From Saccharopolyspora endophytica (lineage in GTDB: Bacteria; Actinomycetota; Actinomycetes; Mycobacteriales; Pseudonocardiaceae): DNA of 64,000 nt. Shown here piece after piece: positions 23,961-63,002 of this stretch; the first letter of the stretch is position 1, and the number at the start of each line of letters is the position of its first letter. Location of the stretch: assembly GCF_018070075.1 (NCBI RefSeq), contig NZ_JAGPXE010000001.1:372001-436000 (forward strand). Direction: 5' to 3'. The notes beneath the pieces were generated by a model. The model had not been told where the DNA came from. It did not search any database and saw nothing but the letters and a program-made list of their open reading frames with translations. Position numbers and translations under genes: made by a program.

Positions 23961-23971
23961 CTTGGCCCCCT

Positions 23972-25557: not shown

Positions 25558-25583
25558 TGAGCTACCTCCTTCCGAGCTCGTGG

Positions 25584-26591: not shown

Positions 26592-26618
26592 GCGGGATGG
26601 GCCTTCCAAGTAGGACGG

Positions 26619-26873: not shown

Positions 26874-27014
26874 AGGTGGCCTCCAGGGCGGTTTTTGGGC
26901 GCACTGGCCCGCAGCGCGCTAGGAGCTAGAGCGCTGGTCAGTGGGAATGAAGGTCGTTAGCGGGGCCGCTAGGTCTAGCGGGCTGGTCGGCTAGACCTAG
27001 CGGCGTTGCTGGGC

Positions 27015-30058: not shown

Positions 30059-30339
30059 CGGAACACCCCCACCGGAAGCCGCGGAGCAGGCACCCGAGCA
30101 CCCAGCCCGTCAACAACGGCCATGACCAGGCGTAGGGCCACGCCCAGGCCGACCAGCCCGACGCCGATAGTGCGGGCGATGCCGGAGGTCACTGCGAGTG
30201 CGAACAGGGCCACGACGGGCAGGACGGTCACGAGGGTGATCCGCAGCAGGCTAGCCACTGCCAGCAGTACCAGCGGCAGCACCACAACCACCACGAGTTC
30301 CAGAACCAGGCTCAACAGCCCGATAACCAGGGTTTTCAT
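30055..30339 (-). CDS. Small hydrophobic transfer-associated protein
   Basis: The 94-residue protein is almost entirely hydrophobic, with two to three segments (LLSLVLELVVVVVLPLVLLA, LVTVLPVVALFALA, GVGLVGLGVALRLV) and a short Pro-rich tail. It resembles Spd-type small membrane proteins by size and position rather than by sequence. The stop overlaps the DUF2637 start by 4 bp. It probably acts in the membrane with the transfer complex. Confidence 0.65.
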   Translation of the reverse strand: MKTLVIGLLSLVLELVVVVVLPLVLLAVASLLRITLVTVLPVVALFALAVTSGIARTIGVGLVGLGVALRLVMAVVDGLGARVPAPRLPVGVFR

Positions 30340-30460
30340 CGCACACCCCCACGGGGGCTGGTGGCGATCCGTAGCATCAGAGATCTCCTAACGGTTTCGT
30401 GATCGGTGGGAGACCCGGCCCAGCAGTTGGTTTGGCGACTGGCCTGCTGGGTCGGGGTCA

Positions 30461-31003
30461 TCAAAAAGGCCAGGTGGTCTCGCCGCCGTCGACGCGATCG
30501 GCGGCCCGAAACAGGGCCTCGGCCATCCAGGCGTCGTTGTTCTGATCGGCCCAGTAGGCCTCATCCCGCGCCGCATTCGGCCCGTACCGCTTGACGTACT
30601 CCCTGGCCTTCCGGTCGCAGCGCAGCTCGCGTTCCGCCCGCTCCGACGCGCACGCCTCGACCGCCGGTTCGTCGGCCGGTTCGGTGCGCTTGACCAGCAA
30701 GGGCTTGCCGGTGATCTGGGACCGCCACGGCCCCTTCTTGCCTTGAAGCCCTCGGCGTTCCATCTCCAGGTAGGCCGCCGTGGGGACCTCATCGACGTGC
30801 GGCGGGGGCGCGTCGATCTCGAAGCGGTACGCACCGCAGTCACAGGTCCACCGCACCGACACCTCGCTGACCTGCTCACCACTGCTCGGCTTGTGCTCCG
30901 GGCAGGTCAGCTCACGCCGCCGCCTGGCACCCCTCGATCCGTCCTCGGTCGAAAACCGCGGCGCCCGCCGCCCGGACAACAGCCAACTCATCAGCCCGTT
31001 CAC
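30461..31003 (-). CDS. Hypothetical element protein with possible zinc site
   Basis: The 180-residue protein has no known family that I recognise. The N-terminal half holds CPEH and CDCGAYRFEIDAPPPHVDEV, which could bind zinc. The C-terminal half is acidic and helical (ASERAERELRCDRKAREYVK; NDAWMAEALFRAADRVDGGE). Its start overlaps the stop of the upstream gene by 4 bp, placing it second in the long minus-strand operon. Soluble; function unknown. Confidence 0.65.
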   Translation of the reverse strand: MNGLMSWLLSGRRAPRFSTEDGSRGARRRRELTCPEHKPSSGEQVSEVSVRWTCDCGAYRFEIDAPPPHVDEVPTAAYLEMERRGLQGKKGPWRSQITGKPLLVKRTEPADEPAVEACASERAERELRCDRKAREYVKRYGPNAARDEAYWADQNNDAWMAEALFRAADRVDGGETTWPF

Positions 31004-31320
31004 GCCGCCTCCCCGGAGTCCGAACCCGCGTCCACCTCGGTCGTGATGAGCCGCAGCGTGGCGTTGGCCTCGCGGCGGTCGTAGCGCCGAAGCCGCGTGC
31101 GCTCCGCTGCGCCGAGCTCCGACCAGACGAAGGGCGCCACCGGCAGTTCGCCCAGTTCCTCGGCGATGACGTGCGACCAGTAGTCCTGCACCGCCTGCTG
31201 CTCGAACTCACTCAGTTCGACCTCGCAGTTGGCCAGCTCGGCGCCGAACGAGGCGTAGGCCTCGATGTCGTGCTGTTCGTCCAGGTCAGCGGCGAACGGG
31301 TCGTGGTTGTGAGAGTCCAT
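31000..31320 (-). CDS. Hypothetical acidic protein, first gene of the transfer/replication operon
   Basis: The 106-residue acidic protein begins MDSHNHDPFAADLDEQHDIE, with a mostly helical middle (EVELSEFEQQAVQDYWSHVI). The ATG at 31320 has GGAAGGAG upstream; a longer frame to 31398 would run into the operator. It is the first gene after the divergent promoter region with two matching palindromes, so it marks the start of the operon that runs to the integrase. Function unknown. Confidence 0.65.
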   Translation of the reverse strand: MDSHNHDPFAADLDEQHDIEAYASFGAELANCEVELSEFEQQAVQDYWSHVIAEELGELPVAPFVWSELGAAERTRLRRYDRREANATLRLITTEVDAGSDSGEAA

Positions 31321-36632: not shown

Positions 36633-38138
36633 CTAAGTGCGGCTCCACGAGTCGCGGACGTGCGCAAACACCCGTCGAAACTCGTCTTCGACCTCTACGG
36701 TGCGCAGCCAGAGGCTTACCAAGTGCTCTACGAGCACGTGTTCTTCGACGGCGAGGTGCCGAGCGGCGCGGGTGAACCAGAATTGGTGATGGGCGAACCG
36801 CACCTGGTCCAGTGCCAGGACGAGGTCGTCAACGTTGCGGGCCAGGAGGTCAGCCAATGCCTTGGGATCGGCGTGTACCTGCCGGAGCAGCTCCTCGTCG
36901 GGCACGTTGCCGGGAAGGAACTCCACCGGGAACCCGCGGTCCCCTTCGACATGTTCCCTCTGGTCGCCATCGAGGAGTACGCAGACCTGCAATGCTTGCG
37001 ACCGGCTTAGCACGCGGGCGCCGGCCAGCGCCTCGTCTCGCCCGCCGGCGTCGACAACGTCGACCTGCTCGGCCAACGTCCGGTCACACCGCACCAACGC
37101 TGCGGTGACTATTCGCCTAGCCAATTCGTCCTCGACGAATACGAGGCCACCGAGAGACGTACGGTGTCCCAGGGTCCGTAGCGCTGCCTCATTTGTCGCG
37201 GGTCGAATCATGCGGGCGCCGTCCGGTCCCGGCGTTAGCATGCGCAGCATCGACGCTGGCGTGCGGGCGATCATGGCTGTCGAGTGCGTAGCGATGATTG
37301 TCTGGATGTTGTGGGCCAATGTGGAGCGGGCTAGTTCGTCGAGTAGGGCGACGTGCCCAACTGGCGACAGGTGGGTCTCAGGCTCGTCTATGAAAATCGT
37401 GCTGCCAGGTCGGGCCGTGCGCACGACGTAGAGGAGGAAATGCACCCACAGTTCTCCACGGCTCATCCGCTCGGCGGGAACAGTTCGTCCGTCGACGATA
37501 CCCTCAGGGCGTGGCACGATAAGGTCCTTCTCGGCTTCGTAGCTGTACCAGCGGAGTTCGTCGTAGTGACGGCCGGTGATGTCGCGTAGTACGCGTAATT
37601 CCGCCGCGCTGTAAGGGAACGGACCCGCCGTGTGTTTCTCGGCCTCGTCGTCCCTCCCATGTTCGAACGCCCAATTGAGGTTGATGTCGAACGCTGTCAC
37701 AACGTCCACGTACTCCCCGTAGGGCGGTGGGTATTCGTGCGGCCATGAATAGCCGCTGAATTCCTTACCTATCGGCTGTTCTAGGTCAACTTCCCATGTC
37801 GTCGAAACACCGTCTGCGTAGTGACGCATGGTGTGCTTCCCACTCACCCCATTGCTGTTTTCGAGGTAGGTGAACGAGCCGTCGCCCTTCTTTCCCAGGC
37901 GGGTGTAAGGCTCCGTAGGCGGACCGCTCAAGCCCAGCTGCGGGCGGTCCGGGAGCGAAGTGACAAGCGTCCGCAGGAGATAGGTCTTTCCCGCGCCGTG
38001 ATTACCTGTGAGGACAGTGAATCGGCCCCAGTCCATCTCGTCCGGCGCGAATACGGGCGATGACGTGATCGAGACGCGCTCCAACCCGAGGGGGCCAGCC
38101 TCAGACAGCCTTCGCCAGATCTTCTCCCGAGCGTCCAC
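36633..38138 (-). CDS. OLD-like AAA ATPase with TOPRIM nuclease domain
   Basis: The 501-residue protein has an ABC-type ATPase head: Walker A GNHGAGKT at 45-52, the signature-like MSRGELWVHFLLY, Walker B STIFIDEPETHLSP and the H-loop IIATHST. A TOPRIM-type domain follows, with LVFVEDELARRIV (catalytic Glu), DVVDAGGRD and CVLLDGDQRE (acidic motif). This order is that of OLD-family nucleases. Single-gene (class 1) OLD proteins defend against phage; class 2 members need a UvrD-like GajB, which is not seen here. The gene sits between a backbone gene and a duplicated leader, so it looks inserted as cargo. Confidence 0.82.
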   Translation of the reverse strand: MDAREKIWRRLSEAGPLGLERVSITSSPVFAPDEMDWGRFTVLTGNHGAGKTYLLRTLVTSLPDRPQLGLSGPPTEPYTRLGKKGDGSFTYLENSNGVSGKHTMRHYADGVSTTWEVDLEQPIGKEFSGYSWPHEYPPPYGEYVDVVTAFDINLNWAFEHGRDDEAEKHTAGPFPYSAAELRVLRDITGRHYDELRWYSYEAEKDLIVPRPEGIVDGRTVPAERMSRGELWVHFLLYVVRTARPGSTIFIDEPETHLSPVGHVALLDELARSTLAHNIQTIIATHSTAMIARTPASMLRMLTPGPDGARMIRPATNEAALRTLGHRTSLGGLVFVEDELARRIVTAALVRCDRTLAEQVDVVDAGGRDEALAGARVLSRSQALQVCVLLDGDQREHVEGDRGFPVEFLPGNVPDEELLRQVHADPKALADLLARNVDDLVLALDQVRFAHHQFWFTRAARHLAVEEHVLVEHLVSLWLRTVEVEDEFRRVFAHVRDSWSRT

Positions 38139-38220
38139 GCGTCGCCCTCTTCTCGTCTAGTGCCGCTGCAAGGACTATTGCTTCTTACCAGTTGATCTAG
38201 TGGTGCACCCAGGGGCAACT

Positions 38221-38304
38221 CCTCGGACATGGATCTCTACCTTCCCGCCGGAAACCCCCACCGGGCCCCAGAGCGTCCCCTGGGGGCTAACACCTCCGGT
38301 GGGA
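38221..38304. repeat. Structured leader, copy B (partial duplicate of the XRE-TPR 5' region)
   Basis: It repeats the ATG, first codons and leader of the XRE-TPR gene: outer stem 38243-38252 with 38295-38304, one G-T on the plus strand. The open frame running from this ATG reads through to another sequence and is not a gene. It lies between the OLD-like gene and the small peptide genes. Confidence 0.65.
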
Positions 38305-38423
38305 CCCAGCACCGTCGATCGCGATCGAGTGCAACGGCGCACCGACTCGGACTACAGCATCTGTCCGCGTTCGCATTCCCGGAAGCTAGTCCGATCGTTC
38401 GTACCACTTCATACGAATGGGCG

Positions 38424-38467
38424 TACGGTAGCGAAATTACCGTAGACCTCAGCAGAATTACCGTAGG
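38424..38467. promoter_or_regulatory. TACGGTA/TACCGTA repeats upstream of the first small peptide
   Basis: A perfect inverted pair (38424-38430 and 38438-38444) is followed by a third copy at 38459-38465, 21 bp (two helical turns) from the second. This is likely a regulator binding region. The surrounding 38305-38555 otherwise holds no gene and is AT-richer than average. Confidence 0.45.
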
Positions 38468-38555
38468 CAAAACGTTTCCCTTGTTTCGCGAGGCGCGGCA
38501 GGCTCAAGCGCAGCACTGCAAGGCGGATATCGCAGAACAAAGCAGAAGGGAAATC

Positions 38556-38717
38556 ATGGCAATCCGAGACAAGTCACTGAGTGAGGTTCCGGTGCGCTAT
38601 CGTGGGCGACCCAGGGTGCATAAAGAACCGCCCGCGCTGTGGATGGCTTGGACGCTCCTCGTGGGCCTAGGGAGCGATGCGGTGCGATGGATTCTACCGG
38701 ATCAATTCCGTCCTTAG
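38556..38717 (+). CDS. Small peptide A of a paralogous pair
   Basis: The 53-residue peptide has a basic start and the C-terminal motif PPALWMAWTLLVGLGSDAVR followed by WILPDQFRP. AGAAGGG precedes the ATG at 38556. The middle of the motif is hydrophobic and amphipathic, so a membrane-active or membrane-bound peptide is possible. Peptide B at 38977 shares the motif, ribosome site spacing and part of the upstream DNA. I know no family for it. Confidence 0.6.
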   Translation: MAIRDKSLSEVPVRYRGRPRVHKEPPALWMAWTLLVGLGSDAVRWILPDQFRP

Positions 38718-38976
38718 CCCCTTCGCATCTGACCATCTGAACGATGGCTCTACCCAGGCTTGTTCTGATCCAAGCACCCGGCTACTCGTCCGATTCTACG
38801 CGAAGCGTTACTCCGAATGGGCTTACTACATCAAAAGTGTCGCATGCGATCGCAAGTTTGTAGTAGCGATCGCACTTTCCCCGTCGCCCAAAGCAAGCAA
38901 GCATTAATCACCGCCGTGTGACCACCGCCGAAACCGCGCCGCGCAGCGTGGAAAGAACGACAAAAGAAGGGATCTC

Positions 38977-39135
38977 ATGGGCAGCCGAAAAAGGAGAGGG
39001 AACACGATTCTGATGCGCAACCATCCGCGCCGCGTGAGCGAAGAGCGGCCCGCACTTTGGATGGCTTGGACACTCTTCGTAGGGGTAGTACGCGAAGCGG
39101 TACGGTGGATACTCCACGATCAATTCCGCTCCTAG
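38977..39135 (+). CDS. Small peptide B of a paralogous pair
   Basis: The 52-residue peptide has a different basic N-terminus but the same core: RPALWMAWTLFVGVVREAVR then WILHDQFRS. AAGAAGG lies just before the ATG at 38977, in a context nearly identical to that of peptide A. The 259 bp between the two are AT-rich and contain a diverged copy of the peptide A promoter region and two GCGATCGC palindromes. The pair arose by tandem duplication of promoter and gene. Function unknown. Confidence 0.6.
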   Translation: MGSRKRRGNTILMRNHPRRVSEERPALWMAWTLFVGVVREAVRWILHDQFRS

Positions 39136-39227
39136 TTCAAGGCGACTTGGTCGAACTGAGGACTGCCCTCAGTTCGGCCAGGTTGCGTTGCACCGGCACA
39201 CCGCTCCGTAGTTGGTGCCGACACTCT

Positions 39228-40415
39228 TTATTGAGATGACCAGTCTTGCGACATGCCGAACACAGCGTGCGCACTTTCATTTGATCTGGCGTGCAAGAGC
39301 ATGCCGCCGTTGGTGAGTCGTGTGACAGGGAACGGTAGATTTTCCGGGTCGATTGGGCGTCTTGCCCAGGGATTCAGCCAGAGCCGTGGGAGCTTACTGG
39401 CGGGCTCCCAAAGTTCGGAACCTCCTCCGATAAGAACCGCCGAGATACCAGATCCTTGCTCCGGATTTTTTCTCCAAACGCCGTTATGTGCACGGTCCCA
39501 CTTGGCTTGTTGGCCAACTGGACCATTCTCGATATAGCTGAGACGAAGTTCGCCAAACAAGGCATCCACAGCGTCGTCCTGGTGAAAATAAGGAGCCCAA
39601 GGAAGAAGTGCGATCATATACGGTTTATCGAGAACACCATATTTTGATCGTTTCTTCTTCAGCGTTCGAACAGCCGCCTCGCGATCTTTTACCATCCCGA
39701 CGGCCATCGGGTAGACTTCGAGGTGAATACCCTCTTCTGTGCGATTCTCGGGCGGGATCGGGTAAGCCGAAAATCGCAGTCGCCAATCCCTAACCGAGAT
39801 GACCGTTACGGGCGGCCATTCAATCGTATCTGCATCGTGCTCAACGGTGGTTGGGTCTAGCGACTCCAGCCAGTTTTTAAGGGGACTCGTTACCTCCGTG
39901 ATGCGAGGACGTTCTGTACCGAACACCTCGAACTCAAGTCCTACAAAAAAGTTCGGATTGCTCAGCTTGTTGACGGCATCGTATATCCAGCCCGCACGCT
40001 CGCTTTGGCTGCTGTCGACTATGTCTGAGAAAAATGTAGCAGCCTCAAGGTAAAATTCCAAATCGTCACGCGTTGCGAGGAAATCCGGATGATTTCCGGA
40101 GTCCGCCAGCTCGGGGTGTACCTCGATCTGGAACCCTAGGGCATCAAAGAGGGTATAGACGTACAATTCCCACCAAGCTGGAAAATGTTGTTCTCGGTTA
40201 TCGGATTTGAACCGGCTAGCCAAGTCGATTGCGTTATCCTCTGGGTATTCCAGAAACCACTGCTCCAGCAAATTTCGTAAACGTTCGAAATATGAATTTT
40301 TGGCGCGGTTGAGGAAAGAGTACGCGCCTTCTCCGTGCGCCTTGGGCGATAAATCTGTCCGCTCGAACTCGTCAAACAAGCTGGAGCGCGAAGCTTCATC
40401 TGAGATTTTAGTCAC
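39228..40415 (-). CDS. Unknown cargo protein, possible PD-(D/E)xK-like nuclease
   Basis: The roughly 395-residue protein has many Phe, Trp, Asn and Lys residues and less GC-rich codons than the host, which suggests recent transfer. Its N-terminal half has AWWELYVYTLFDALGFQIEV followed by HPDFLATRDDLEFYLEAATF. The P-D...E-A-A spacing resembles the core of restriction-endonuclease-like folds, although the usual Lys is replaced. The rest has no motif I recognise. The GTG at 40415 gives a reasonable N-terminus; the frame continues to 40532 without good codons. It is the last gene before the element's right end and could be a defence or modification factor; that is inference. Confidence 0.6.
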   Translation of the reverse strand: MTKISDEASRSSLFDEFERTDLSPKAHGEGAYSFLNRAKNSYFERLRNLLEQWFLEYPEDNAIDLASRFKSDNREQHFPAWWELYVYTLFDALGFQIEVHPELADSGNHPDFLATRDDLEFYLEAATFFSDIVDSSQSERAGWIYDAVNKLSNPNFFVGLEFEVFGTERPRITEVTSPLKNWLESLDPTTVEHDADTIEWPPVTVISVRDWRLRFSAYPIPPENRTEEGIHLEVYPMAVGMVKDREAAVRTLKKKRSKYGVLDKPYMIALLPWAPYFHQDDAVDALFGELRLSYIENGPVGQQAKWDRAHNGVWRKNPEQGSGISAVLIGGGSELWEPASKLPRLWLNPWARRPIDPENLPFPVTRLTNGGMLLHARSNESAHAVFGMSQDWSSQ

Positions 40416-40514
40416 ACCAAAGATGTTACAGATCGTTATCTCTCCAGCGCGCAACTCATGCCCGCGGCGCCTCGTGCAGGCACATGCTCGGGCCGCCAGC
40501 GTGGGCGCACCTGG

Positions 40515-40578
40515 TCTCAGTTTGGGTCTCATTCGAGGGCGTTCACGGAGGTTCGGAACGGGCTCGGCGCGTTCACGG
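40515..40578. promoter_or_regulatory. Arm-type repeats at the right end of element 1
   Basis: TCTCA pairs (40515-40519, 40527-40531) and GTTCACGG pairs (40541-40548, 40571-40578) precede the core by about 107 and 60 bp. Element 2 has the same set at 45394-45457 with identical internal spacing. Confidence 0.6.
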
Positions 40579-40637
40579 CGATCCTCTGACCTGCCGATTT
40601 TCCGTCCGTGGCCTCCGCTGAACCGGTGATCGTAGAA

Positions 40638-40685
40638 CTGAAAAGCGGAAGGTCGGCGGTTCGACCCCGCCCCTGGCCACCGCTC
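40638..40685 (+). other. Core att site joining the two elements
   Basis: Exact copy of the tRNA-Phe 3' half (48 bp). The 5' half of the tRNA is missing, so it is not a tRNA gene. It is attR of element 1 and attL of element 2. Confidence 0.9.
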
Positions 40686-40700
40686 ATAGCTGCGAGAACA

Positions 40701-40724
40701 GCCCCCGTCGATCTCGACGGGGGC
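40701..40724 (+). terminator. Rho-independent terminator after the middle core
   Basis: 11-bp arms at 40701-40711 and 40714-40724 with a T-rich tail, in the same position relative to the core as at 19660 and 45569. Confidence 0.8.
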
Positions 40725-40731
40725 TTCTTCG

Positions 40732-40748
40732 TCTCATTTTTCGTCTCA
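40732..40748. promoter_or_regulatory. Paired TCTCA arm-type repeats, left end of element 2
   Basis: TCTCA at 40732-40736 and 40744-40748, 12 bp apart, 47 bp from the core, exactly as in element 1. Confidence 0.6.
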
Positions 40749-40799
40749 GTTCCCACTCCCGGGCGTGGGCTTCGCAAAGCCTCCACCCGTGGGAGAAGT

Positions 40800-41879
40800 T
40801 CACAGATCGCCAGTGCGGGTATGCGTGAGGTCCACGTCCCTAAGGTCTGTGCCAACAAGCGTCGTGGCCCTCAAATCGGTGCCGCCGAGGTTGGCTCCAT
40901 CGAGAAGAGCACCGGAGAGGTCCATGCCGACGAAGCTGATGTTGGATAGGTCCGCGTCTTTGAGGACAGCGCCAGCGAGCTGTGCGCTGACGAAGTTGGC
41001 GCTAGCAAGATCAATGCCGACAGCGCTAATGCCAGTGAGGTTGGTCGCATTGATCTCCGTACGGGTTACGCTCGCGCCCGTCAAACGTGCGGATCGCAGA
41101 TTGGCGTTGATGAGGGAAGTGTCCGCGAGGTTCGCGTTGGTCAAGTCTGCTCCGGCGAGCGTTGCGCCGAGCAACTTGGCGCGACTCAGGTTGGCTCCGG
41201 TGAGATTCGCGCCGGTGAGGTCAATACCGCTCAAGTCCGCGCCAGAGAGGTCTACGCCGGCGAAGTCCATCTTCGCCAACCGTGCACCGGAAAGATTGAT
41301 GGGTTTGGCCTCTGCGCTGTGGCTTTGGCTTTTGATGATGTCTGCTGCGGTGTAGAGGTCGGCCGCCGCAGTGGTGTCTACTGGCGGCCACATCAGCAGG
41401 GCGTCTGTTAGCGGAGCAGGCGGATGTGTACGGACGAACGCGGCCAGTACGTCCATCGCAGCTGAGTGGTCCCGCGGCGAGTCGGATGCGATCCGGTTCA
41501 GCGCATAGGCACCCCCGATACGGACCTCGGGCTTTTCAGCGCCTAGTTGCTCGACCGCCTTGGTGAAGCGGTCGGTGATTTGTCCCTGCTCAGCTGTATT
41601 CGCCTGATCACGTGCGATCACGACGTTGACAGCCGTAAAGATCAACGCCGCCGCCGTTGCAACACCCGTTATGAAGGTGCCGATTTGCCCCCAGTCGACA
41701 CGCCTGGCGGTCCTTGGATCTGAGGGTTGCCCGTTGGGTGGCTCCCATGGTTCGTGGGTAGCGCTCCTAGGCTCCTGTACTCGAGTATCAAGAGTTCCGG
41801 GCGGTTTCAGTCCGATACGACCATGCCCGGCGATTTGGCGTCGGGTGTTGGGGGTGTGCCGCCGATCCATGGTGATCAT
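40800..41879 (-). CDS. Pentapeptide-repeat protein with a membrane segment
   Basis: The 359-residue protein has a polar N-terminus and one transmembrane segment (TFITGVATAAALIFTAVNVV). A helical region of about 110 residues follows, including VEQLGAEKPEVRIGGAYALN, typical of actinomycete membrane pentapeptide proteins. About 30 pentapeptide units (A-[DN]-L-x-x) then form a right-handed quadrilateral helix up to the C-terminus. Similar proteins are abundant in actinomycetes with unknown roles; soluble relatives mimic DNA and bind gyrase. It starts at the ATG at 41879 and lies downstream of the truncated integrase as cargo of element 2. Confidence 0.82.
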   Translation of the reverse strand: MITMDRRHTPNTRRQIAGHGRIGLKPPGTLDTRVQEPRSATHEPWEPPNGQPSDPRTARRVDWGQIGTFITGVATAAALIFTAVNVVIARDQANTAEQGQITDRFTKAVEQLGAEKPEVRIGGAYALNRIASDSPRDHSAAMDVLAAFVRTHPPAPLTDALLMWPPVDTTAAADLYTAADIIKSQSHSAEAKPINLSGARLAKMDFAGVDLSGADLSGIDLTGANLTGANLSRAKLLGATLAGADLTNANLADTSLINANLRSARLTGASVTRTEINATNLTGISAVGIDLASANFVSAQLAGAVLKDADLSNISFVGMDLSGALLDGANLGGTDLRATTLVGTDLRDVDLTHTRTGDL

Positions 41880-41988
41880 GATCCCAGCCTGGTTCCCCGT
41901 TAGAGGGATAAATGCCAGATCCAGTTGATCGGCTGAGGGCTGTGCACCGGGCGGGCGCCGCAACAGCAGCTGGCACCCGCCCGGTATC

Positions 41989-42924
41989 TCACCGCATTCC
42001 CCAGAAGTACGTGTTGAGGCGGTCCGCAACGTCCCGTCTGAGTGCGTCGGTGACGTGCATGTAGCGCTGCTTCATGGAGATCGTCGACCAGCCCATGAGG
42101 TCCATGACCGTTCGATCTGGCACTCCGAGGATGAGTAGAACTGTGGCTGCCGTGTGCCGGGCGTCGTGCAGCCGGGCCTCGCGGACATTGGCTTCAGCAA
42201 GTAGTGACTTCCACTCATCGAGGTCCTGGCGAGGATCCAGTGGTCGGCCGTTCGGTTGGGCGAACATCCAACCTTCCTCGCGCCATTCGTTGACTGCCTG
42301 CTCGCGTTCGGCGTTCTGAACATCCCGGTGCCGCAGGATGAGCTCGAAGAGCTCATCGGGAAGCGAGATCGTCCTCCGTCCGGCCTTCGACTTGACGTCG
42401 ACCTCGACCAAGCCTCCCCCTTTGCGCTGGGGGCACCAGCGGGCGTGATCGGTGCAATCCGTGGAACAGGGTGGTGGGCACGCGCGAGTGTGGCGCTTGC
42501 ACGCGGGCGGGCACGGCTTCGTCTTGTGGTACTTCTGCCCGCACTGGTGCGGGTCGTCGCACCCGTGCTGCCATGTCTGCCGTTGGAGAGCCCTCTTGAT
42601 CCGCAGGGTTTTCCGCCGCTCGTCGAGGCAGTCCCACTTCAGAGCAAGTGACTCGCCTTGCCGAGTGCCGAGGGCCAACGCGATGACGAAGCGGACGCCG
42701 TTTCGGCGGCCCAACGCGACCTTGAGGATCTGCTGAACCTCTTCGGCATCCAGTGGCTCGATCTCTTCCTCGTCGACACGAGGCGCTTTGGCGATCTCCA
42801 GGGGGTTACGCACGATATAGCCGCGCTTCATCGCCTCGCCGAAAGCCGTGCGGGCAGTCCGGTGCACCTGGTGCGCCGTACCAGGCTTCAACCCGGACTC
42901 CATCATCTTCAAGTACAACATCAC
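41989..42924 (-). pseudogene. 5'-truncated integrase of element 2
   Basis: It encodes about 305 residues homologous to the element 1 integrase from its residue 129 to the end. They include the Cys/His-rich insertion (QHGCDDPHQCGQKYHKTKPC...) and Arg, His-x-x-Arg and Tyr catalytic residues. The arm-binding and part of the core-binding domain are missing; homology stops at 42918, where the WWALATFEL remnant begins. Protein identity with element 1 is high. Without the N-terminal domains it is probably inactive. Confidence 0.88.
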
Positions 42925-43074
42925 TAAAACGTCCCCGGCGTCCTACTGGCCTGGCACCAAACCCTCACGGGTGACTGGTGGGCGCTCGCCACCTTCGAAC
43001 TCACCAACCGTTCGGGTAAGCCCGGCCTCGTGGTCACCCAGCTCGTGCCAGCCAACGCCATCAAACCGCGCTGA
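42918..43074 (+). pseudogene. Frameshifted 3' remnant of the WWALATFEL gene
   Basis: The sequence matches 36399-36554 of element 1 (DNA for GDWWALATFELTNRS, KPGLVVTQLVPA). It lacks the first half and one base (near 42934), which breaks the frame. It marks the right side of the deletion junction in element 2. Confidence 0.82.
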
Positions 43075-43161
43075 GGACCGGCCTCCAACTCGTGTCAGGT
43101 GTTGGCGTTTCGGTTGTGGATGTGCGCCGCGTCCACGGCGCCTGCGCGTAGTTGACAGGGT

Positions 43162-44709
43162 TCAGCGAGTCAGCGCGGTGTCGAGGAGCATGAGGGTGCG
43201 CGGTTGCTCGGCCGAATCCAACACCTGCCAGCGAGCCACTTCCCGACCGGACGTAACCCCGACACCACTGAACGCAAGTTGGTAACGCGGTAGTGGCGTC
43301 GAAGTCAATGTCTCGCGGTGGGCCCAGTTCCACCGCAACAAGGTCTGCTTGAGCGGCCCGGCACCACGGTAGCGTTCATCCAGCAGCGGCCGTGTCACGG
43401 CCGGGTGGGTGAGGTAGTCCACAATGGGGACCGGCGCGTGGAAAGCCAACGCACCTACTTCCCCAGGGCTGCCGACGGGCTGTCCGCCGGTGAGTCGTCC
43501 GAGATCCGCGGCGACGGCGGCGTACTGCGGGGTGCTGGCATAGTTTCCAGTCAGGTAGGCCATTGTCCAAGGGGCTGGCAACGACGCGACCAGCGATCCG
43601 GTAGCTAGCACGAGAGCGGCTACGAGTGTGGCGAGCCCGAGACGGTTCGAGCAGTACAGGCTGAGCGCCGTAGCCAGGACCGAGCAGGCCACCAATGGCG
43701 CGAAGTACCAAAATTGCGGGTAAGCCCCACCCAGCCACATCACCGCCCAATGCGCCCAACCCGCAATAAGCGCTGCCAACACAACGCGCGCATGACGGCC
43801 ACCCCGGGTCAGAGCCCACACGCCGCACGTCAAGCCCATCACAACCGGCAGCGCGGTCAAGAACGTCGCGACCGGCCACCGGGCGAAGTAGTACGAACCC
43901 ACTGACGTCGCCATTGTGAGCGACGCGCCGCTGCTGCTCTTGAGCCATGTCGTGTCCGGCACCGCGCCGCCGAGGGCGAACCACGACCACACGTGCCACG
44001 GCACGACCACCATGGAGCCAACGGCGGTCGCTGAAATTGATCGCCGCCACGGCAGCAAAGCGAAGATCAGCACGGCCGCTGGCACGATCAGGTCGAGTCG
44101 AGTCAGCAGCGCTACACCTGCGACCACTCCGGTGGCCGCGGCACGGTCGGCGGCCGCGTAGCGGGCGACACCGGTGAGCGTCGCGACCGCGAGGTAGGTC
44201 TCGAGACCCACGGTGGATGCCAACAGGGGTGAGCACGCCACCAAGGTCAACGCAAGGTACGACGCTGCCCAGTGAAGCCCGAGACAACGGCGTAGCCCTT
44301 CGGCCCACCGGCCGGTCACAGCGAGGGTCAGGGAGAGAACAATCCCGACGGCATACACCACGTGACCATTGGCGAGTAGGCTCCCTGCAGCCAGCAGCAA
44401 CATATTCAGGGCGGAGCTCTGCGTGTTTGCAGTAACCCCTGGCAATGCGCCCCATACGCCGTGCTCAGCGAGGTTCCGGGCATAAGTCAGCGTGATCATC
44501 GCATCGTCCGACATGGCTCGGTGCGTGACCAGGAACAGCGCCAGCCCGAGCACAGCGCCGTACATGGCGGAACCCCACCGGCTCATCCCAAGACGCCACC
44601 AGCGGGCCGAACTACCACCCTCTAGGACTGCGGGTGCTGGCAACTTGTCCAACAGTGTGCTCACCCAGCGAAGGATCCGCGTGAAGCGCTTTATAAAGCC
44701 GCAGGTCAC
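43162..44709 (-). CDS. Multi-pass membrane protein, GT-C glycosyltransferase-like
   Basis: The 515-residue protein has around ten membrane segments. After the first, the loop SDDAMITLTYARNLAEHGVW has the D-D/E and Y-A-R-N-L pattern of GT-C type lipid-linked sugar transferases, and a soluble C-terminal region follows the last segment. It would use a polyprenyl-phosphate sugar to modify an envelope glycan or protein. No partner enzymes are nearby. An in-frame ATG at 44586 could be the true start. It is cargo in element 2. Confidence 0.65.
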   Translation of the reverse strand: MTCGFIKRFTRILRWVSTLLDKLPAPAVLEGGSSARWWRLGMSRWGSAMYGAVLGLALFLVTHRAMSDDAMITLTYARNLAEHGVWGALPGVTANTQSSALNMLLLAAGSLLANGHVVYAVGIVLSLTLAVTGRWAEGLRRCLGLHWAASYLALTLVACSPLLASTVGLETYLAVATLTGVARYAAADRAAATGVVAGVALLTRLDLIVPAAVLIFALLPWRRSISATAVGSMVVVPWHVWSWFALGGAVPDTTWLKSSSGASLTMATSVGSYYFARWPVATFLTALPVVMGLTCGVWALTRGGRHARVVLAALIAGWAHWAVMWLGGAYPQFWYFAPLVACSVLATALSLYCSNRLGLATLVAALVLATGSLVASLPAPWTMAYLTGNYASTPQYAAVAADLGRLTGGQPVGSPGEVGALAFHAPVPIVDYLTHPAVTRPLLDERYRGAGPLKQTLLRWNWAHRETLTSTPLPRYQLAFSGVGVTSGREVARWQVLDSAEQPRTLMLLDTALTR

Positions 44710-56820: not shown

Positions 56821-57795
56821 TCAGTCAGGCGACGCCGTGGTTTCGGCCGATCGGGTGCTGACGTTCGGTCCGATGTCGCGCTGAGCCACCAGGATGGCAG
56901 CGGTGCCCGAGAGATCGGGTGCGGTGGGCAGGATGGCGTGCACTTGGCGCAGGCCACCGACACCACCGACGCTCGCCGCGGTCAGTGAGCTCGCGGGAGG
57001 CGAGCAGGGAGAGGGCACGGCAGGGCTCGGACCGCCCGACGGGTCGCCGTCCGGCGCTTCGTCCGCATCAGGTGCCCGGGGCCGTGCGTCATCGCGAGTG
57101 GTGCCCGTTCCCGACGCCTTCACCGATGTGCGAACCGTCGGCCCCGTGAAAACGGCGCTGGACGGTGCGTTCGACTGCTCGTCGGCGACGGCGTGGATGT
57201 TCTTGTGACGTGCGCTGTTGCCCTTGCCCAGCGAGTCGTGCTCGCCCTGGGAGGCGGAGTTCGCGTGGGCCGAGCTCCCGTGGGACGAGGAGTTGGTGTT
57301 CGCGGAGGTGTTCCCGTTCGACACCGCGTTCGCGTTGGCGTTCGCCGACGCGTTGCCGGTGTCGGGGGCCGCCGGAGCGGTGACAGCCGGTTCGGCGGGT
57401 GCGGCCTTATCCGGTTTCGCCGGTTCGACCTTCTCGGGCTTTTCCGCTTGAACCTTTTTCGGCGGGTCGGGCTTCTCGGTCTCGACCGCCTTCTGAGACC
57501 GGGTGCTCTTCTGCTGCGAGACCTTCTCGGCGGGCTTCGACGATTTTCCGGAGCCCGAGCCCTTGGCCTTTGATCCGGAAGGGTGATCACCGGAGTCGGG
57601 CTTGCTCGACGCCGATGCCGAAGCGGACTGCGATACGCCCGGTTTGTCGGCGTGCGCATTCTCGCCGGCCGAAGCCGCGGTCGCACCGCCGACCATCACT
57701 CCCAGGCACAAACCGCTGAAGAGCGAGGCCTTGACCAGGAACGCAGCGGTGCGCGAACGGGGACCGCGCACTGCGCGAATTCCCTTCACGGTCAC
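56821..57795 (-). CDS. Secreted low-complexity Ala/Ser/Lys/Pro-rich protein
   Basis: The 324-residue precursor begins with a basic region and hydrophobic stretch (FLVKASLFSGLCLGVMVGGA) ending in a signal-peptidase-type ATAASAGE. The mature chain is low-complexity: Lys/Pro/Glu-rich (KKVQAEKPEKVEPAKPDKAA), an Asn/Ala/Ser-rich stretch (ASANANANAVSNGNTSANTN) and a Pro/Ser-rich part with two Cys near the end. It looks like a cell-wall spanning or disordered extracellular protein. It is divergent from the protease operon, 254 bp apart, and may be its substrate or share its promoter region; that is inference. The start is one of several GTG codons (57789-57798). Confidence 0.65.
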   Translation of the reverse strand: MTVKGIRAVRGPRSRTAAFLVKASLFSGLCLGVMVGGATAASAGENAHADKPGVSQSASASASSKPDSGDHPSGSKAKGSGSGKSSKPAEKVSQQKSTRSQKAVETEKPDPPKKVQAEKPEKVEPAKPDKAAPAEPAVTAPAAPDTGNASANANANAVSNGNTSANTNSSSHGSSAHANSASQGEHDSLGKGNSARHKNIHAVADEQSNAPSSAVFTGPTVRTSVKASGTGTTRDDARPRAPDADEAPDGDPSGGPSPAVPSPCSPPASSLTAASVGGVGGLRQVHAILPTAPDLSGTAAILVAQRDIGPNVSTRSAETTASPD

Positions 57796-58048: not shown

Positions 58049-59215
58049 GTGTCCGCTGTGGATCAGGATCAGAATCAGGAACGGCTGGGTCTAGCCGAAC
58101 TCCATCGCATCTGGACGTCCTACGGGCACGAGATGCTGCTGCACGATCCCGGCGGCGATGGCGAATGCCTGGTCAGGCGCGGTGAATTGCTGGCCCCGGC
58201 GGACTCGCTGGACCCGGTGCTCGACCGGTACCGCAGGTGGATCGATCGGGTGCACCACGACGAAGACCTGCTGCTCGCCCGAATTCGGCTCCGCGATGCC
58301 GAACGCGACCACTGCGTCGACCTGGCCGGAGAGGGCGCGGGTGCGTCGGTGAACAACGTCCACGTCGGCAGTCCGGTCATGTTCGGAACGCCGGTGATGT
58401 TCGGAACCGGGGAGGAACCGGAATTCACTCATCCGGTCGCAGAGCCGCCTTCGACCGAATGGGATCCACCGGTGTTCGTCGGCGTGCTCGACACCGGTTG
58501 CGACCCGCACCCCTGGTTCACCGGCCGCCCCGGATTCGAAGCGGTTCCGGAGGAATTGGACTCCGATGACGATTCCGGGCAGGACCGGCAAGCCGGGCAC
58601 GGCACGTTCGTCAGCGGAGTCGTCCTGCAGCACGCCCCGGGCGCGGTCATCCGGCCCAAGCGCGTGCTGTCCTCGCTGGGATTCACCGACGACTACACCG
58701 TCGCCTCCGGACTGCGCACCCTGCGGCGTTCGGCCCAGCGCCGGGGCGAGCCGGTCGACGTGGTCGTGCTGACCTCCGGCTGCCACACCGCCGACGACCG
58801 CTGCCCGGAGGTCCTGGCCTCAGCGCTGCGCGCGATGGACCCGGCCGTCGTGGTGGCCGCGGCCGGCAACCACGGGCGGACCCGGCCCTTCTGGCCCGCC
58901 GCGATGCCCGAGGTGCTGGCGGTCGCCGCGACCGGGGCCGACGGCAAGATCGCCTCGTTCTCCAACACCGGCGACTGGGTCGACGCCGCGGCACCGGGCG
59001 TGGACGTGCGCAGCTGCTTCGTCCGGATGGCGCCGGGCGGCGCCCGCGACTTCGGCTACGCGCGCTGGAGCGGGACGTCCTTCGCCGCGCCCCGGGTCGC
59101 CGCCGTGATCGCCACCGCCCTGCAAGCGGACCGGGACCCCGCGCGGGCCCGCGAACTCGTCGAGCACTGCTACCCGTACGCCACCGCACTGCCCGAGCCC
59201 GTCGCGGCCGAGTGA
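58049..59215 (+). CDS. Subtilisin-like serine protease (S8), apparently cytosolic
   Basis: The 388-residue protein has a 140-residue N-terminal domain with no signal peptide and no transmembrane segment, followed by an S8 catalytic domain. The triad is intact: D148 in GVLDTGCDP, H184 in GHGTFVSG, S344 in SGTSFAAP, with the oxyanion Asn in AAAGNHGRT. The lack of a signal sequence suggests it acts in the cytoplasm, unusual for secreted-type subtilases. It leads an operon with an ECF sigma factor, a small protein and a CHAT protease, so it may be triggered by or act on those partners. GTG start; the ribosome site is weak. Confidence 0.9.
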   Translation: MSAVDQDQNQERLGLAELHRIWTSYGHEMLLHDPGGDGECLVRRGELLAPADSLDPVLDRYRRWIDRVHHDEDLLLARIRLRDAERDHCVDLAGEGAGASVNNVHVGSPVMFGTPVMFGTGEEPEFTHPVAEPPSTEWDPPVFVGVLDTGCDPHPWFTGRPGFEAVPEELDSDDDSGQDRQAGHGTFVSGVVLQHAPGAVIRPKRVLSSLGFTDDYTVASGLRTLRRSAQRRGEPVDVVVLTSGCHTADDRCPEVLASALRAMDPAVVVAAAGNHGRTRPFWPAAMPEVLAVAATGADGKIASFSNTGDWVDAAAPGVDVRSCFVRMAPGGARDFGYARWSGTSFAAPRVAAVIATALQADRDPARARELVEHCYPYATALPEPVAAE

Positions 59216-59338
59216 TCCGGTACCGCTTTTCTTGACCCGATCGTGGGGTATCCAGCGCCAACTGAATCTTTGAGCACCCCTTCGTCCTCTTACTCGGTGG
59301 GAAGGAAGAGAGATCACCGAGCTCCGGAGGTGCTGGTC

Positions 59339-59923
59339 GTGTACGAGGTCGGGGAAGCCGGTCCGGCTGCGGTGCTGCTGAATCGGGTGGCGTCCGGGGA
59401 CGAACAGGCGTGGCGGGAACTGGTGGATCTGTACACGCCGGTGATCTGGGGTGTCTCGCGGGCGTACGCCGGCAACACCGCGGACGCCGAGGACGTCTGC
59501 CAGGCGACCTGGTTGTCGTTGGCGGAGAACCTCGAACGGCTCCGCGAGCCCGACGCCCTGCCAGGCTGGCTGGTCACCACCGCCAGACGGGAGGCCATCC
59601 GGTTGCGCCGCGCGCGGTCGCGGGAAGCGCCCGTCGGCCTGGACACCGATCACCTGGGTGCGACCGAGCACTCCGAGGCCGCCGAGAAGCTGGCGCTGCG
59701 CGTGGTCTCCGGTACCCGGTTGGCGCAGGCGTTCGGCGCGTTGCCGCAGCGCTGCCAGCAGCTGCTGCGGGTCCTGGCCGTCGCGCCGGAGACGACCTAC
59801 GCGCAGGTCAGCGAGGCGTTGGGAATACCGAGAGGAACGATCGGCCCGAAGAAGAGCCGGTGCCTGGCCGAGCTGCGCAGGCGGCTGGTCAGCGCCGAGC
59901 TGCCCGAGGAGGTGGCGGGATGA
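59339..59923 (+). CDS. ECF-type sigma factor
   Basis: The 194-residue sigma factor has region 2 (WRELVDLYTPVIWGVSRAYA, AEDVCQATWLSLAENL) and region 4 (FGALPQRCQQLLRVLAVAPE, YAQVSEALGIPRGTIGPKKS). The GTG at 59339 follows GGAGG 8 bp upstream; the frame is open further up but lacks a ribosome site. Its stop overlaps the next gene's ATG (ATGA). No classical anti-sigma gene follows; the small beta-sandwich protein or the proteases may take that role. Confidence 0.88.
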   Translation: MYEVGEAGPAAVLLNRVASGDEQAWRELVDLYTPVIWGVSRAYAGNTADAEDVCQATWLSLAENLERLREPDALPGWLVTTARREAIRLRRARSREAPVGLDTDHLGATEHSEAAEKLALRVVSGTRLAQAFGALPQRCQQLLRVLAVAPETTYAQVSEALGIPRGTIGPKKSRCLAELRRRLVSAELPEEVAG

Positions 59924-60393
59924 AGCAGCGGATTCCGGCGGAGCTGCGCCGACTGCGCGAACTGTTCCAGGCCCAGGACCCGGTCCCGGACCGAGTGCTG
60001 GCCGGGTCGTACGCGGCGGTCGCGATGCGCGCGGCGCGCGGCGACCGCGGCGAGCTCAAGCTCGTCGGCGACTCCGCGGACGAACGCATCGGCGTGCGGG
60101 CCGGCGGCTCGCAGTCGCGCGTGCTGACCTTCGCGATGCCCGGCCGGGTGCTGGAGATGGACGTGGTGCCCACGGCGGCCGGCCTGGTCCGGGTGTCCGG
60201 GATGGTGCTCAACCGGTCCGGGCAGGCACCCCCGACCGGCGAGGTCGTGGTGCGGCACCCGTCCGGTGAGCGCAGCGGGGAGCTGGACCGGGACGGCGCG
60301 TTCCAGGTGGCCGACGTGCCGCGCGGCCCGGTGAGCGTGGTGTTCCGCCCCGAGCGGGCCGAGCCCGCCATCGCGGATTGGCTGGTCTGTTGA
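59920..60393 (+). CDS. Small protein with carboxypeptidase-regulatory-like beta-sandwich
   Basis: The 157-residue protein starts with an amphipathic helical region (IPAELRRLRELFQAQDPVPD) and ends with a beta-sandwich module (VRVSGMVLNRSGQAPPTGEV, GELDRDGAFQVADVPRGPVS), similar to carboxypeptidase-regulatory-like domains. Its start overlaps the sigma stop and its end overlaps the CHAT gene start, so the three are translationally coupled. It could be an adaptor or protease substrate holding the sigma factor; that is inference. Confidence 0.75.
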   Translation: MKQRIPAELRRLRELFQAQDPVPDRVLAGSYAAVAMRAARGDRGELKLVGDSADERIGVRAGGSQSRVLTFAMPGRVLEMDVVPTAAGLVRVSGMVLNRSGQAPPTGEVVVRHPSGERSGELDRDGAFQVADVPRGPVSVVFRPERAEPAIADWLVC

Positions 60394-63002
60394 GCGCGGC
60401 GACGGCGGTGGCACCGCCGAATGCGATCGAGGCCGCGCTGCGCTGGCGCGACGAGGCGACCGCGGCGCCGCAGGAGGCGTTGCGAGAGGCCGGACGGTTG
60501 CTGTCGGGTGCGGCTCCCGACGGTGAGCTGCGGGTGCTGGCCCGGCACATCGCCGCGCTGGCGGCGGTCGAGCTCGGCCGGGTCGACGAGGCCCGCAGGC
60601 ACGTGCGGCTCGGGCTGTCCACCGCGCAACGCGGTGGCTGGTCCAAGCGGGCCGCGCAGCTGCAGCTGACCCTGGCGTGGATCGAGCTGGAACGGGGCGC
60701 CACCGGTGCGAGCTGGGCGAACCTGGCCGCCGCCGAACCGCACCTGCCCGCCGAGGACCGGCCCAGGGCGACGTGCCTGCGCGGGTTGCTGCACTGCCAG
60801 CGCGGCCACCACCGGGACGCGAGGCTGCGCCTGACCAGCGCGTTGGTCCACCTCGACGGCGACAGGCGGTGGAAGGCCAACGCGCTGCTCGGTCGGGGCC
60901 TGGCCAACCTCTACACCAACAGGTTGGAGGAGGCCGAGCAGGACCTGGCCGACGCCGAGCGGATCTTCACCGCCGACGGTCGCGGTGCGCGCGCAGCCGG
61001 GTGCCGGCACAACCGGGGCTGCGTGGCGTTCCGGGCGGGTGATCTGCCCCGGGCGCTGCGGCTGTTCGAGCAGGCGGTGGCGGCCGGACTCGACGTCACC
61101 GCGAACCCGGAAGCGCTGGTGGACCGGGGTGAAGCGCTCGCCGCCGCGGGGCTGACCCAGCGCGCCCGCGCGGTGATGGAGCAGGCGTCGCAGCGCTTGG
61201 CCACCACCGGACGGCACGGACGTCTCGCCGAAACCCGGCTCGCGCTGGCCGAATGCGCGCTGCGCGATGGCGACCCGACCGCGGCGGCGGAGGCGGCGAG
61301 TGCGGCGAGGCGGTTGTTCCGCGGCCAGAAGCGGCCCGCGTGGGCGGCGCTGGCCTCCGCGATCGTGTGGCAGGCGAAGCTGCGATCCGGGCAGAGCACG
61401 CGGTACGCGCTGTCGGCGGCGCGGCGGGCGGCCAACGCGTGCGAGGACTTCGGGTGGCGCGCGACCGCCGCCGAGCTCCGGCTCACCGCCGGGCGCACCG
61501 CGCAGCTGGCGGGCCTGAACTCGGTGGCGCGCAAGCTGCTCGGGCGCTGCGCTGATCTGCGCGAGCTCGCGGTGCCGCCGCAGTTGCGAGCCCTGGGCTG
61601 GTTGGCCGAGGCGCTGCTCGCCGAGCAGGAGGGCAACACCGCCCGGCTGCTGCGGGCGTGCCGCGCCGGGCTCAAGGCCGTCGATGGCCAGGCCGTCGGC
61701 ATGGCCGCCTTCGAGATGCGGGTGCACGCGCTGGGGCTGGGCGACGAGCTCGGCGCTGTCGCGGTGCGCGCCGCGCTGCGCATCGGCGACCCGCAGCTGG
61801 TGCTGCGCTGGACCGAACGCTCCCGGGCCAGCGCGCTGCACCGCCGGGCGCTGCGACCACCATCGGATCCGCAGCTGAACGCGGCACTGGTCCGGCTGCG
61901 CGGCGCGGTGCTCGACGCGCAGCGCGCGGCGGACCCGAAGCGGGCCATGAACACCGTTGCCGAGCTGGAAGAACAGGTGCGGCACCAGGCGATGCTGGTG
62001 GAGGGCCGCACCGATCGGCTGCGGGCGCCGGCCGAGATCGGCGAGATCAGCGCCGAACTCGGCGACGCCGTCCTGCTGAGCCTGTTCTCCGAGAACGGCA
62101 AGCTCTTCGCGGTGTCCATCGTGGACGGTGAAGCCGCGCTGCACGTGCTCGGTCCGGAGGCCTCGGCGGAGAGCCAGGCCGTCCGGCTCCGCCATCTGCT
62201 CGCGCGGCAGGCGTGCGGCGTGGACTCCCGCGCGGCCCCGATGTTCGAGCACGGGGTCGAGCTGGCCGCGGCCGAACTCCAAGCGCAGCTGCTGGCACCC
62301 GTCCTCCCGGCCCTGAAGCGGGGACGCGAACTCGTCGTGGTGCCGACCGGTCGGTTGCACCTGCTGCCGTGGGGCGCGCTGCCCGCGTGCCGGGGCAACC
62401 CGGTCACGGTCAGCCCGTCGATCCGCTGCTGGCTGGGCGGTGCCGAGCGGGCGCGCGCGGCGAATCCGGCCGGCGGCAAGGCGTGGATCGCCGGGCCGCG
62501 CCTGGACCACGCCGAACGCGAGGTCCGCACGCTGCACCACCGCGGTGGCGGGCGGCTGCTCACCGGGTCGGGCGCGAGAACGGATCGGGTTCTGTCCGCG
62601 TTGGACGGAGCTCGTGTCGCCCACCTGGCCGCGCACGGCCACTTCCGCGACGACCAACCGCTGCTGTCCTGCCTGGACCTGGACGACGGCCCGCTCTACG
62701 CGCACGACCTCGACGGCCTCCGCCGCAGCCCCACCACGGTGGTGCTGTCGGCCTGCGACGTTGGGAAGTCCGCGATCAGCAGGGGCGATCAGCTCAGCGG
62801 GCTGACCGCGACCCTGCTGGACCGGGGCACGGCGACGGTGATCGCCAGCGTCGTCCCGGTCCCCGACGAGCGGACCGTGGAGGTGATGCTGACGCTCCAC
62901 GACGGGCTCGACGCAGACCTGCCACCTGCCGCTGCCCTGGCCGAAGCCCAAGCGCGGCACGGCGAAACGGGCTTCATCTGCATCGGGTACGGAGGTGGTT
63001 GA
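60378..63002 (+). CDS. TPR-CHAT protein (caspase-like cysteine protease)
   Basis: The 874-residue protein has a helical TPR-like region (about 20-560; e.g. LTLAWIELERGATGASWANL and ADAERIFTADGRGARAAGCR) and a C-terminal CHAT domain from about 600. The catalytic dyad is intact: H753 in HLAAHGHFRD and C793 in VVLSACDVG. CHAT proteases include separase-like and Csx29-type effectors that are switched on by partners. In this operon the sensor would be the TPR domain. The start is TTG at 60378 or TTG at 60390 (TTGA overlap with the previous stop). Known relatives are annotated next to sigma factors and S8 proteases in other actinomycetes as far as I recall, without an assigned function. Confidence 0.88.
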   Translation: MAGLLSAATAVAPPNAIEAALRWRDEATAAPQEALREAGRLLSGAAPDGELRVLARHIAALAAVELGRVDEARRHVRLGLSTAQRGGWSKRAAQLQLTLAWIELERGATGASWANLAAAEPHLPAEDRPRATCLRGLLHCQRGHHRDARLRLTSALVHLDGDRRWKANALLGRGLANLYTNRLEEAEQDLADAERIFTADGRGARAAGCRHNRGCVAFRAGDLPRALRLFEQAVAAGLDVTANPEALVDRGEALAAAGLTQRARAVMEQASQRLATTGRHGRLAETRLALAECALRDGDPTAAAEAASAARRLFRGQKRPAWAALASAIVWQAKLRSGQSTRYALSAARRAANACEDFGWRATAAELRLTAGRTAQLAGLNSVARKLLGRCADLRELAVPPQLRALGWLAEALLAEQEGNTARLLRACRAGLKAVDGQAVGMAAFEMRVHALGLGDELGAVAVRAALRIGDPQLVLRWTERSRASALHRRALRPPSDPQLNAALVRLRGAVLDAQRAADPKRAMNTVAELEEQVRHQAMLVEGRTDRLRAPAEIGEISAELGDAVLLSLFSENGKLFAVSIVDGEAALHVLGPEASAESQAVRLRHLLARQACGVDSRAAPMFEHGVELAAAELQAQLLAPVLPALKRGRELVVVPTGRLHLLPWGALPACRGNPVTVSPSIRCWLGGAERARAANPAGGKAWIAGPRLDHAEREVRTLHHRGGGRLLTGSGARTDRVLSALDGARVAHLAAHGHFRDDQPLLSCLDLDDGPLYAHDLDGLRRSPTTVVLSACDVGKSAISRGDQLSGLTATLLDRGTATVIASVVPVPDERTVEVMLTLHDGLDADLPPAAALAEAQARHGETGFICIGYGGG

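Follow-up and report, generated by a model that had tools for sequence, protein, structure and literature searches.

In a 64,000-nucleotide stretch of the Saccharopolyspora endophytica genome (contig NZ_JAGPXE010000001.1, positions 372,001 to 436,000; hereafter the window), genes for a cytosolic subtilase, an extracytoplasmic function (ECF) sigma factor, a small protein and a tetratricopeptide repeat (TPR)-CHAT protease lie together on the + strand. These four genes form a conserved module that recurs in many actinomycetes. We tentatively propose, with confidence just short of even, that the locus is a soluble, CRISPR-independent sigma-factor switch under the control of the TPR-CHAT protease, which would act by way of a cleaved small protein. 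Computed support for this proposal comes from the association of the genes, a natural fusion, a linker motif, a promoter motif and a putative regulon.

The subtilase gene (58049..59215) matches Pfam Peptidase_S8 (PF00082, 6e-24) and encodes the catalytic residues D148 (58490-58492), H184 (58598-58600) and S344 (59078-59080). The sigma factor gene (59330..59923; 197 amino acids from an inferred GTG start) matches Pfam Sigma70_r2 (6.5e-15) and, above its cut-off, the NCBIfam sigma70-ECF model (4e-22), with Sigma70_r4 falling just under its own cut-off (1.2e-4). It is followed by the gene for the small partner protein (59920..60393; 157 amino acids), which matches CarboxypepD_reg (PF13620) at 2.7e-4, under the curated cut-off, and by that for the TPR-CHAT protease (60378..63002; 874 amino acids, TTG start), which has TPRs and a Pfam CHAT domain (4.6e-34; residues 631-859, 62268..62954) containing H753 (62634-62636) and C793 (62754-62756). 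An earlier sequence-only reading had placed all four genes on one strand and described both proteases as catalytically intact; the Pfam and NCBIfam matches on the + strand agree with this, and the S8 residues are kept in 43/43 and the CHAT residues in 67/67 aligned homologues. The operon that it had drawn from gene overlaps stands for the sigma-small-CHAT chain, with overlaps of 4 bp and 16 bp that are the same in five Saccharopolyspora relatives (L031-L035), but not for the subtilase, whose stop codon lies 114 bp from the likely start of the sigma gene. Since this gap contains a promoter-like motif, we regard the subtilase as a neighbour outside the overlap chain. For the sigma gene, 59330 is the most likely start, as called from codon usage; a start at 59243 was set aside because the conserved promoter-like motif occupies 59263-59290.

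We used P0004, the TPR-CHAT protein of the window, as query for a family-level search and found relatives in 106/150 family genomes and 35/46 genera. Among close relatives of the window's genome, five have names: S. aridisoli (96 %), S. dendranthemae (89 %) and S. ipomoeae, S. rhizosphaerae and S. flava (85 % each). The CHAT-seeded set comprised 67 loci (60 fetched stretches, six from close relatives and the window), hand-chosen to cover close and distant matches with several per genus, and hence not independent samples; their genes were called by our own gene caller and iterated hidden Markov models, with "near" meaning within four genes. The sigma and small genes are adjacent or fused in 56/67 loci, all 56 of which have the CHAT gene within four genes; a subtilase is equally near in 43/67, and the complete four-gene set is present in 37/67. 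These counts are lower bounds, as tblastn detected two genes absent from our gene calls, one for a sigma factor in L084 and one for a subtilase in L065. The 11 loci lacking the pair (L053, L065, L073, L074, L077, L078, L080, L082, L084, L086 and L095) all encode CHATs with 30-39 % identity to P0004. Arrangements differ between loci: the genes occur in the order of the window on one strand, with CHAT divergent from subtilase-sigma-small, or as sigma-small-CHAT without the subtilase. That the genes are rearranged yet retained argues for functional linkage, and the conservation of the set in so many loci rules out chance.

A second search was seeded with A1, a profile of 34 small proteins that all come from CHAT-seeded loci and are thus not wholly independent of the first set. 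Across 296 phylum genomes it had a match in 33 at 1e-3, and in 24 of these the match reached 1e-20. The window's genome aside, there were 26 strong matches; we inspected every one, in 25 stretches, and added the weaker L151. Among these small-protein-seeded loci (n = 26), the sigma gene is adjacent or fused in 22, CHAT is near in 17, a subtilase is within four genes in 17, and all four genes are present in 16. The conservation of neighbours across many genera, which the sequence-only reading had named as the mark of a true system, is therefore seen from both seeds (56/67 and 22/26 loci). A CHAT-domain profile, A4, matched 42 of the same 296 genomes at 1e-20 and 36 at 1e-60; the A1 and A4 searches scored only the top 12 and 6 candidates per genome, respectively. 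A strong small protein (E<=1e-20) is found in 24 genomes, the window's included, and 23 of them also carry this CHAT; the lone exception (G420) is a draft genome with a contig of 6.8 kb. A strong small protein occurs in 23/36 CHAT (1e-60) genomes versus 1/260 others (Fisher 5e-24, kinship ignored). Where no CHAT gene lies within four genes of the small protein, one was found elsewhere in the genome in 7/8 sampled cases; the search concerned covered ten genomes, of which nine, those seven included, carry a CHAT. In family f19, the CHAT profile matches twelve genomes strongly (about 1e-84 to 1e-107) but the small protein is matched weakly or not at all, five genomes giving weak hits only; this family is the chief source of strong CHATs without a strong small protein, and may encode a diverged or different partner.

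The small protein consists of an N-terminal segment with a DPxP motif, a variable linker and a C-terminal beta-sandwich-like domain. PF13620 matches 19/34 small proteins, weakly (E<=0.05), and is a regulatory-like rather than a catalytic domain; we favour a non-enzymatic partner of the sigma factor as the likely role of the protein. In genus g27, the sigma factor and small protein form a single open frame in 7/8 genomes and two genes in the eighth. The eight genomes of this genus (G027, G065, G093, G114, G131, G147, G150 and G151) each give 10 to 16 fusion matches; their ECF sigma paralogues are many, and several are paired with small proteins where there is no local CHAT. A mixed alignment of fusions, sigma factors and small proteins (A2) misaligned the small proteins and was left unused.

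The linker contains a near-invariant arginine, R60 (codon 60097..60099). Position 60 is basic in 96/96 small-protein homologues, many of them close relatives (R in 95, K in 1), and is preceded by V, T, A or L in 94/96 and followed by S, G, A or T in 89/96. The motif [VTALI][RK][SGAT] occurs within the 15 residues before the first strand in 91/96 homologues, versus 27.9 expected by shuffling, and in 104/770 other 15-mers of the small proteins; this tighter test was made after a looser linker motif had given a weak result (96/96 versus a shuffled expectation of 65.6). The g27 fusions retain T-R-S or T-R-N in the linker in 7/7 cases, although the preceding stretch has been shortened and differs. 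We favour the R60 motif as a candidate protease cleavage site; a binding motif or a structural element is also possible.

For the sigma gene we predict an ECF-type promoter (TGAATCT-N16-CCTCT, 59263..59290, + strand) 39 bp upstream of the likely start; it reads TGAATCTTTGAGCACCCCTTCGTCCTCT. By dyad search of upstream regions we derived the motif TG[AT]ATC-N16..20-CTC[CT], found within 150 bp upstream of 31/101 sigma-family genes versus 9/1220 other genes (0.0 and 1.2 expected by shuffling; no match in either set with the reversed control), and of 6/64 subtilase, 0/94 CHAT and 0/92 small genes. As it was discovered in these same upstream regions, the enrichment is a description rather than an independent test. 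A strict pattern, TGWATCTN{15,17}CCTCT, derived from four sites in the window's genome, gave 94 matches in 21 genus genomes and none with the reversed control. We inspected 83 of these; the remaining 11 were placed by coordinates at the sigma gene, about 1.1 kb before CHAT. By position, 18/21 genus genomes have a site at their own operon. The four strict sites of the window's genome lie at the operon itself, at a trypsin-like gene, at a VanZ-like gene and near 49 kb of contig C4.

The detailed set numbered 87 sites, including three from the sister genus and one site read twice, and 77/87 have a start codon on the same strand within 400 bp downstream (10 without). Grouped by the gene downstream, with each family named from only one or two of its members, the sites comprise VanZ-like (15), Uma2 (11), secreted trypsin-like protease (8), the sigma factor itself (7), DUF559-type (6) and pyrimidine phosphorylase (3); two further families lack a Pfam match (13 and 10), and there are four singletons. 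With a matrix built from 63 non-self sites, 27/101 sigma upstream regions exceed the 99th percentile of other genes, and the window promoter scores 12.3 bits versus -4.1 at that percentile. We infer that the window's sigma factor reads these promoters, as the regulon sites resemble its own. The secreted protease and the VanZ-like membrane protein in the putative regulon hint at a function in the envelope or in secretion. A loose promoter pattern was dropped at family level as noisy, with hits also in genomes lacking a P0004 match; genus g40, for instance, gave 7 and 8 loose matches in G040 and G074 and has no CHAT relative of P0004, possibly reflecting another sigma factor with a similar promoter.

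In the mechanism that we propose, the small protein would bind the ECF sigma factor and keep it inactive, a contact suggested by gene adjacency and the natural fusion. An internal signal would reach the CHAT protein through its TPR part, upon which activated CHAT would cut the linker of the small protein, probably after R60, and so part the sigma-binding segment from the beta-sandwich. The freed sigma factor would then transcribe its own operon and, in Saccharopolyspora, also a small regulon of secreted trypsin-like protease, VanZ-like, Uma2- and DUF559-type proteins. In the Craspase system, Csx30 is reported to inhibit CASP-sigma and to be cut by the TPR-CHAT protein Csx29 (PMC10028731), and by analogy the sigma factor is here probably freed when CHAT cleaves the small protein. 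We propose cleavage at R60, sigma release and autoregulation because Craspase, minus its RNA-guided sensor, has the most similar set of parts (TPR-CHAT, ECF sigma, sigma partner); binding, inhibition, the direction of control, the assignment of the promoter and the part played by the subtilase are to be read in the same conditional sense as cleavage itself. The proteolytic switch imagined in the sequence-only reading thus survives in that the conserved sigma/small/TPR-CHAT module fits it, but there is no evidence that CHAT acts on the subtilase, as had been suggested, and in 24/67 loci no subtilase was called within four genes. The subtilase may instead be a frequent accessory protease, which would perhaps complete the degradation of the cut fragment or reset the system.

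Several observations weigh against this mechanism. The CHAT of Craspase resembles separase, and the residue of separase that reads arginine at P1, D2151, is replaced by K670 in it (PMC9729208). The equivalent position in the window's CHAT, in an alignment read by eye, is V834; being non-acidic, it lends no support to arginine specificity. The nearby D830, conserved in 61/67, was considered as a separase-type arginine reader and dropped, as the published equivalence maps to V834. The sites at which Craspases cut are not conserved (PMC11106740), and a conserved site is therefore not required by the analogy at all; R60 is also kept in small proteins without a local CHAT. The spacing from R60 to F71 (6-17) and to P23 (22-66) varies, but two of three spacings within the beta-domain vary equally (17-28 and 22-33); variable spacing therefore says little in favour of a free linear motif, and we dropped this argument. 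The small-protein profile has no significant match among solved structures in the PDB (best E 0.5). As to the promoter, the strict pattern is not enriched in 138 genomes outside the genus and its sister genus g46 (28 versus 24 control matches), the window copy reads TGAATC in place of the TGTATC of most regulon sites, and four other genes outscore it on the regulon matrix, most of them with a CGTC -10 element. The combination of TGTATCTG with a CGTC -10 is present near other genes too, and cross-talk with another ECF sigma factor is thus possible.

The direction of control could also be the reverse: the small protein could be an activator of the sigma factor, a co-activator or stabiliser like the C-terminal extensions of other ECF groups, and cleavage by CHAT would then turn the sigma factor off. 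The single-frame fusions of genus g27 suit such a role, and a precedent exists: one ECF42 sigma factor is said to depend on its C-terminal extension to be active (PMC7730460, introduction). We nevertheless consider this unlikely, though the strongest of the alternatives, since the proteases of Craspase and of CalpL/CalpT/CalpS, as described, cut inhibitors. The gene layout also speaks against it: a partner gene directly 3' of a sigma gene with a 4-bp overlap is the typical sigma/anti-sigma arrangement, and the window's sigma and small genes overlap in this way. A review has proposed for the ECF54 group, which has the same gene context, that there is no anti-sigma factor and that the proteases degrade the sigma factor itself until a signal halts degradation (PMC8999054). 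Here, however, the "carboxypeptidase" match is sub-cut-off, regulatory-like and non-catalytic, the small protein pairs or fuses with the sigma factor, and the conserved linker motif is located in the small protein, so that we judge this proposal improbable for the window.

It is about as improbable that R60 is cut not by CHAT but by the subtilase or another protease. Some subtilases prefer a basic residue at P1, and a subtilase is near in 43/67 and 17/26 loci; R60 is, however, kept in loci without a called subtilase, a count that covers only local presence, and CHAT co-occurs with the small protein in 23/24 genomes. The least probable reading, to which we give little credence, is an anti-phage defence or suicide system with CHAT as executioner and the sigma factor as a reporter arm. 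TPR-CHAT proteins do work in CRISPR defence elsewhere, and the Uma2 and DUF559 regulon families resemble restriction-type nucleases (Pfam, one representative each). Against this, all 21 genus genomes have one close CHAT copy (E<=1e-30), unlike a mobile defence island; the flanking genes are conserved, as set out below; no CRISPR-like array was found among the repeats listed for 56-64 kb, which include 20 of 25 direct-repeat families; and of the PADLOC matches, those of BovA (2e-4, CHAT) and IetS (about 2e-3, subtilase) were weak and a subtilase match at 6.6e-13 was generic. The role in defence or cell death to which the sequence-only reading had alluded thus finds no positive support. At E<=1e-3, a second, weaker CHAT match appears in two genus genomes, G112 and G129. 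In a plasmid collection, 23 records match, none spanning 80 % of CHAT; an 11.85-Mb Nonomuraea entry of this collection, L187 (NZ_LT559118.1), is labelled as a plasmid but, given its size, is probably a chromosome.

MocR-like and aminotransferase-like genes flank the locus and are both kept in 25/67 loci, window included, which indicates vertical inheritance of the window-type locus. A divergent gene on the - strand (56821..57789, start approximate, translations read by eye) encodes a secreted low-complexity protein, counterparts of which, with a signal-like N-terminus and C-terminal SPD/APD, stand in the same place in other loci. The suggestion that this protein may be a target of the system is not supported: its position is indeed conserved, but so are the MocR-like and aminotransferase-like flanks, and we regard it as a conserved neighbour and no more than a possible member. 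Elsewhere in the window, integrase-, excisionase-, replication- and FtsK/TraB-like genes, named from translations only, follow one another at 22647-31320 (- strand) and together resemble an integrative conjugative element of actinomycetes. The region 36633-44709 (- strand), of lower G+C, holds AAA/TOPRIM-like, second integrase-like and pentapeptide-repeat genes, likewise read from translations; it was largely missed by the codon-usage gene caller and is therefore perhaps recent foreign DNA.

The sequence-only reading knew of no described system of this composition, but the review cited above already lists, as the context of the actinobacterial ECF54 group, an ECF sigma factor with carboxypeptidase, subtilase and CHAT genes (PMC8999054). 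The window carries the same neighbours, namely carboxypeptidase-type (weak PF13620), subtilase and CHAT domains, and its sigma factor has region 2 above and region 4 just below the Pfam cut-offs; the small protein would then be the "carboxypeptidase" of the ECF54 literature. Whereas the review reads the context as sigma degradation, we read the small gene as encoding the partner of the sigma factor and the substrate of the protease, and the passages of the review on ECF54 contain no promoter, regulon, fusion or linker motif. No experimental study of the gene set was found in the literature searched, which did not cover the original ECF54 descriptions; these may contain part of the present findings. 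The present analysis adds the reading of the small protein as sigma partner, together with the fusion, the linker motif, the promoter and the regulon; these turn a catalogue entry into a circuit that can be tested, in that it specifies the partner, a candidate residue for cleavage, the promoter and its putative targets.

In two described systems, Craspase and CalpL/CalpT/CalpS, a cytosolic protease acts upon the soluble protein that inhibits an ECF sigma factor. CalpL/CalpT/CalpS shares with the locus a cytosolic protease, a soluble anti-sigma factor and an ECF sigma factor, but its protease is a SAVED-Lon protein fed by cyclic tetra-adenylate, and a Pfam scan of the four window proteins found neither SAVED nor Lon domains. 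Neighbourhoods of EACC2-caspase, ECF sigma factor and DUF1822 TPR protein, assigned to apoptosis and immunity networks (PMC8195603), likewise bring together a caspase-fold protease, a TPR protein and an ECF sigma factor, though with different domains.

Craspase (Csx29, Csx30, CASP-sigma) is the closest of these, with a TPR-CHAT protein bearing a His-Cys dyad, an ECF sigma factor and a sigma-binding protein, the last a predicted role here. Against the PDB, the CHAT-domain profile matched 8rot_B at 2e-11, Craspase TPR-CHAT/Csx29 chains at 8.5e-9 to 2e-5 and separase marginally at 0.01; for Csx30 and the window's small protein the comparison is at sequence level only, with the PDB result given above. 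Unlike Craspase, the locus has no Cas7-11-sized gene called in the window: apart from CHAT, the gene calls of the 64-kb window contain nothing over 800 amino acids, presumably too short for Cas7-11, although the neighbours were not scanned singly with Cas models. It also differs in that a single close CHAT copy is kept in all 21 genus genomes. A bolder reading, possible but doubtful in our estimation, is that of a widespread, largely vertical Actinomycetota switch as the CRISPR-free counterpart of Craspase, in which a separase-like CHAT protease whose TPRs sense an internal signal would cut a dedicated anti-sigma factor at a near-invariant arginine and free an autoregulated ECF sigma factor with an envelope or secretion regulon; CRISPR systems would in that case have taken over a pre-existing CHAT-sigma switch instead of inventing one. 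If the switch proposed here is real, proteolytic sigma release by TPR-CHAT would be an ordinary signalling route of actinomycetes rather than a CRISPR oddity, and the origin of the Craspase output arm would become testable.

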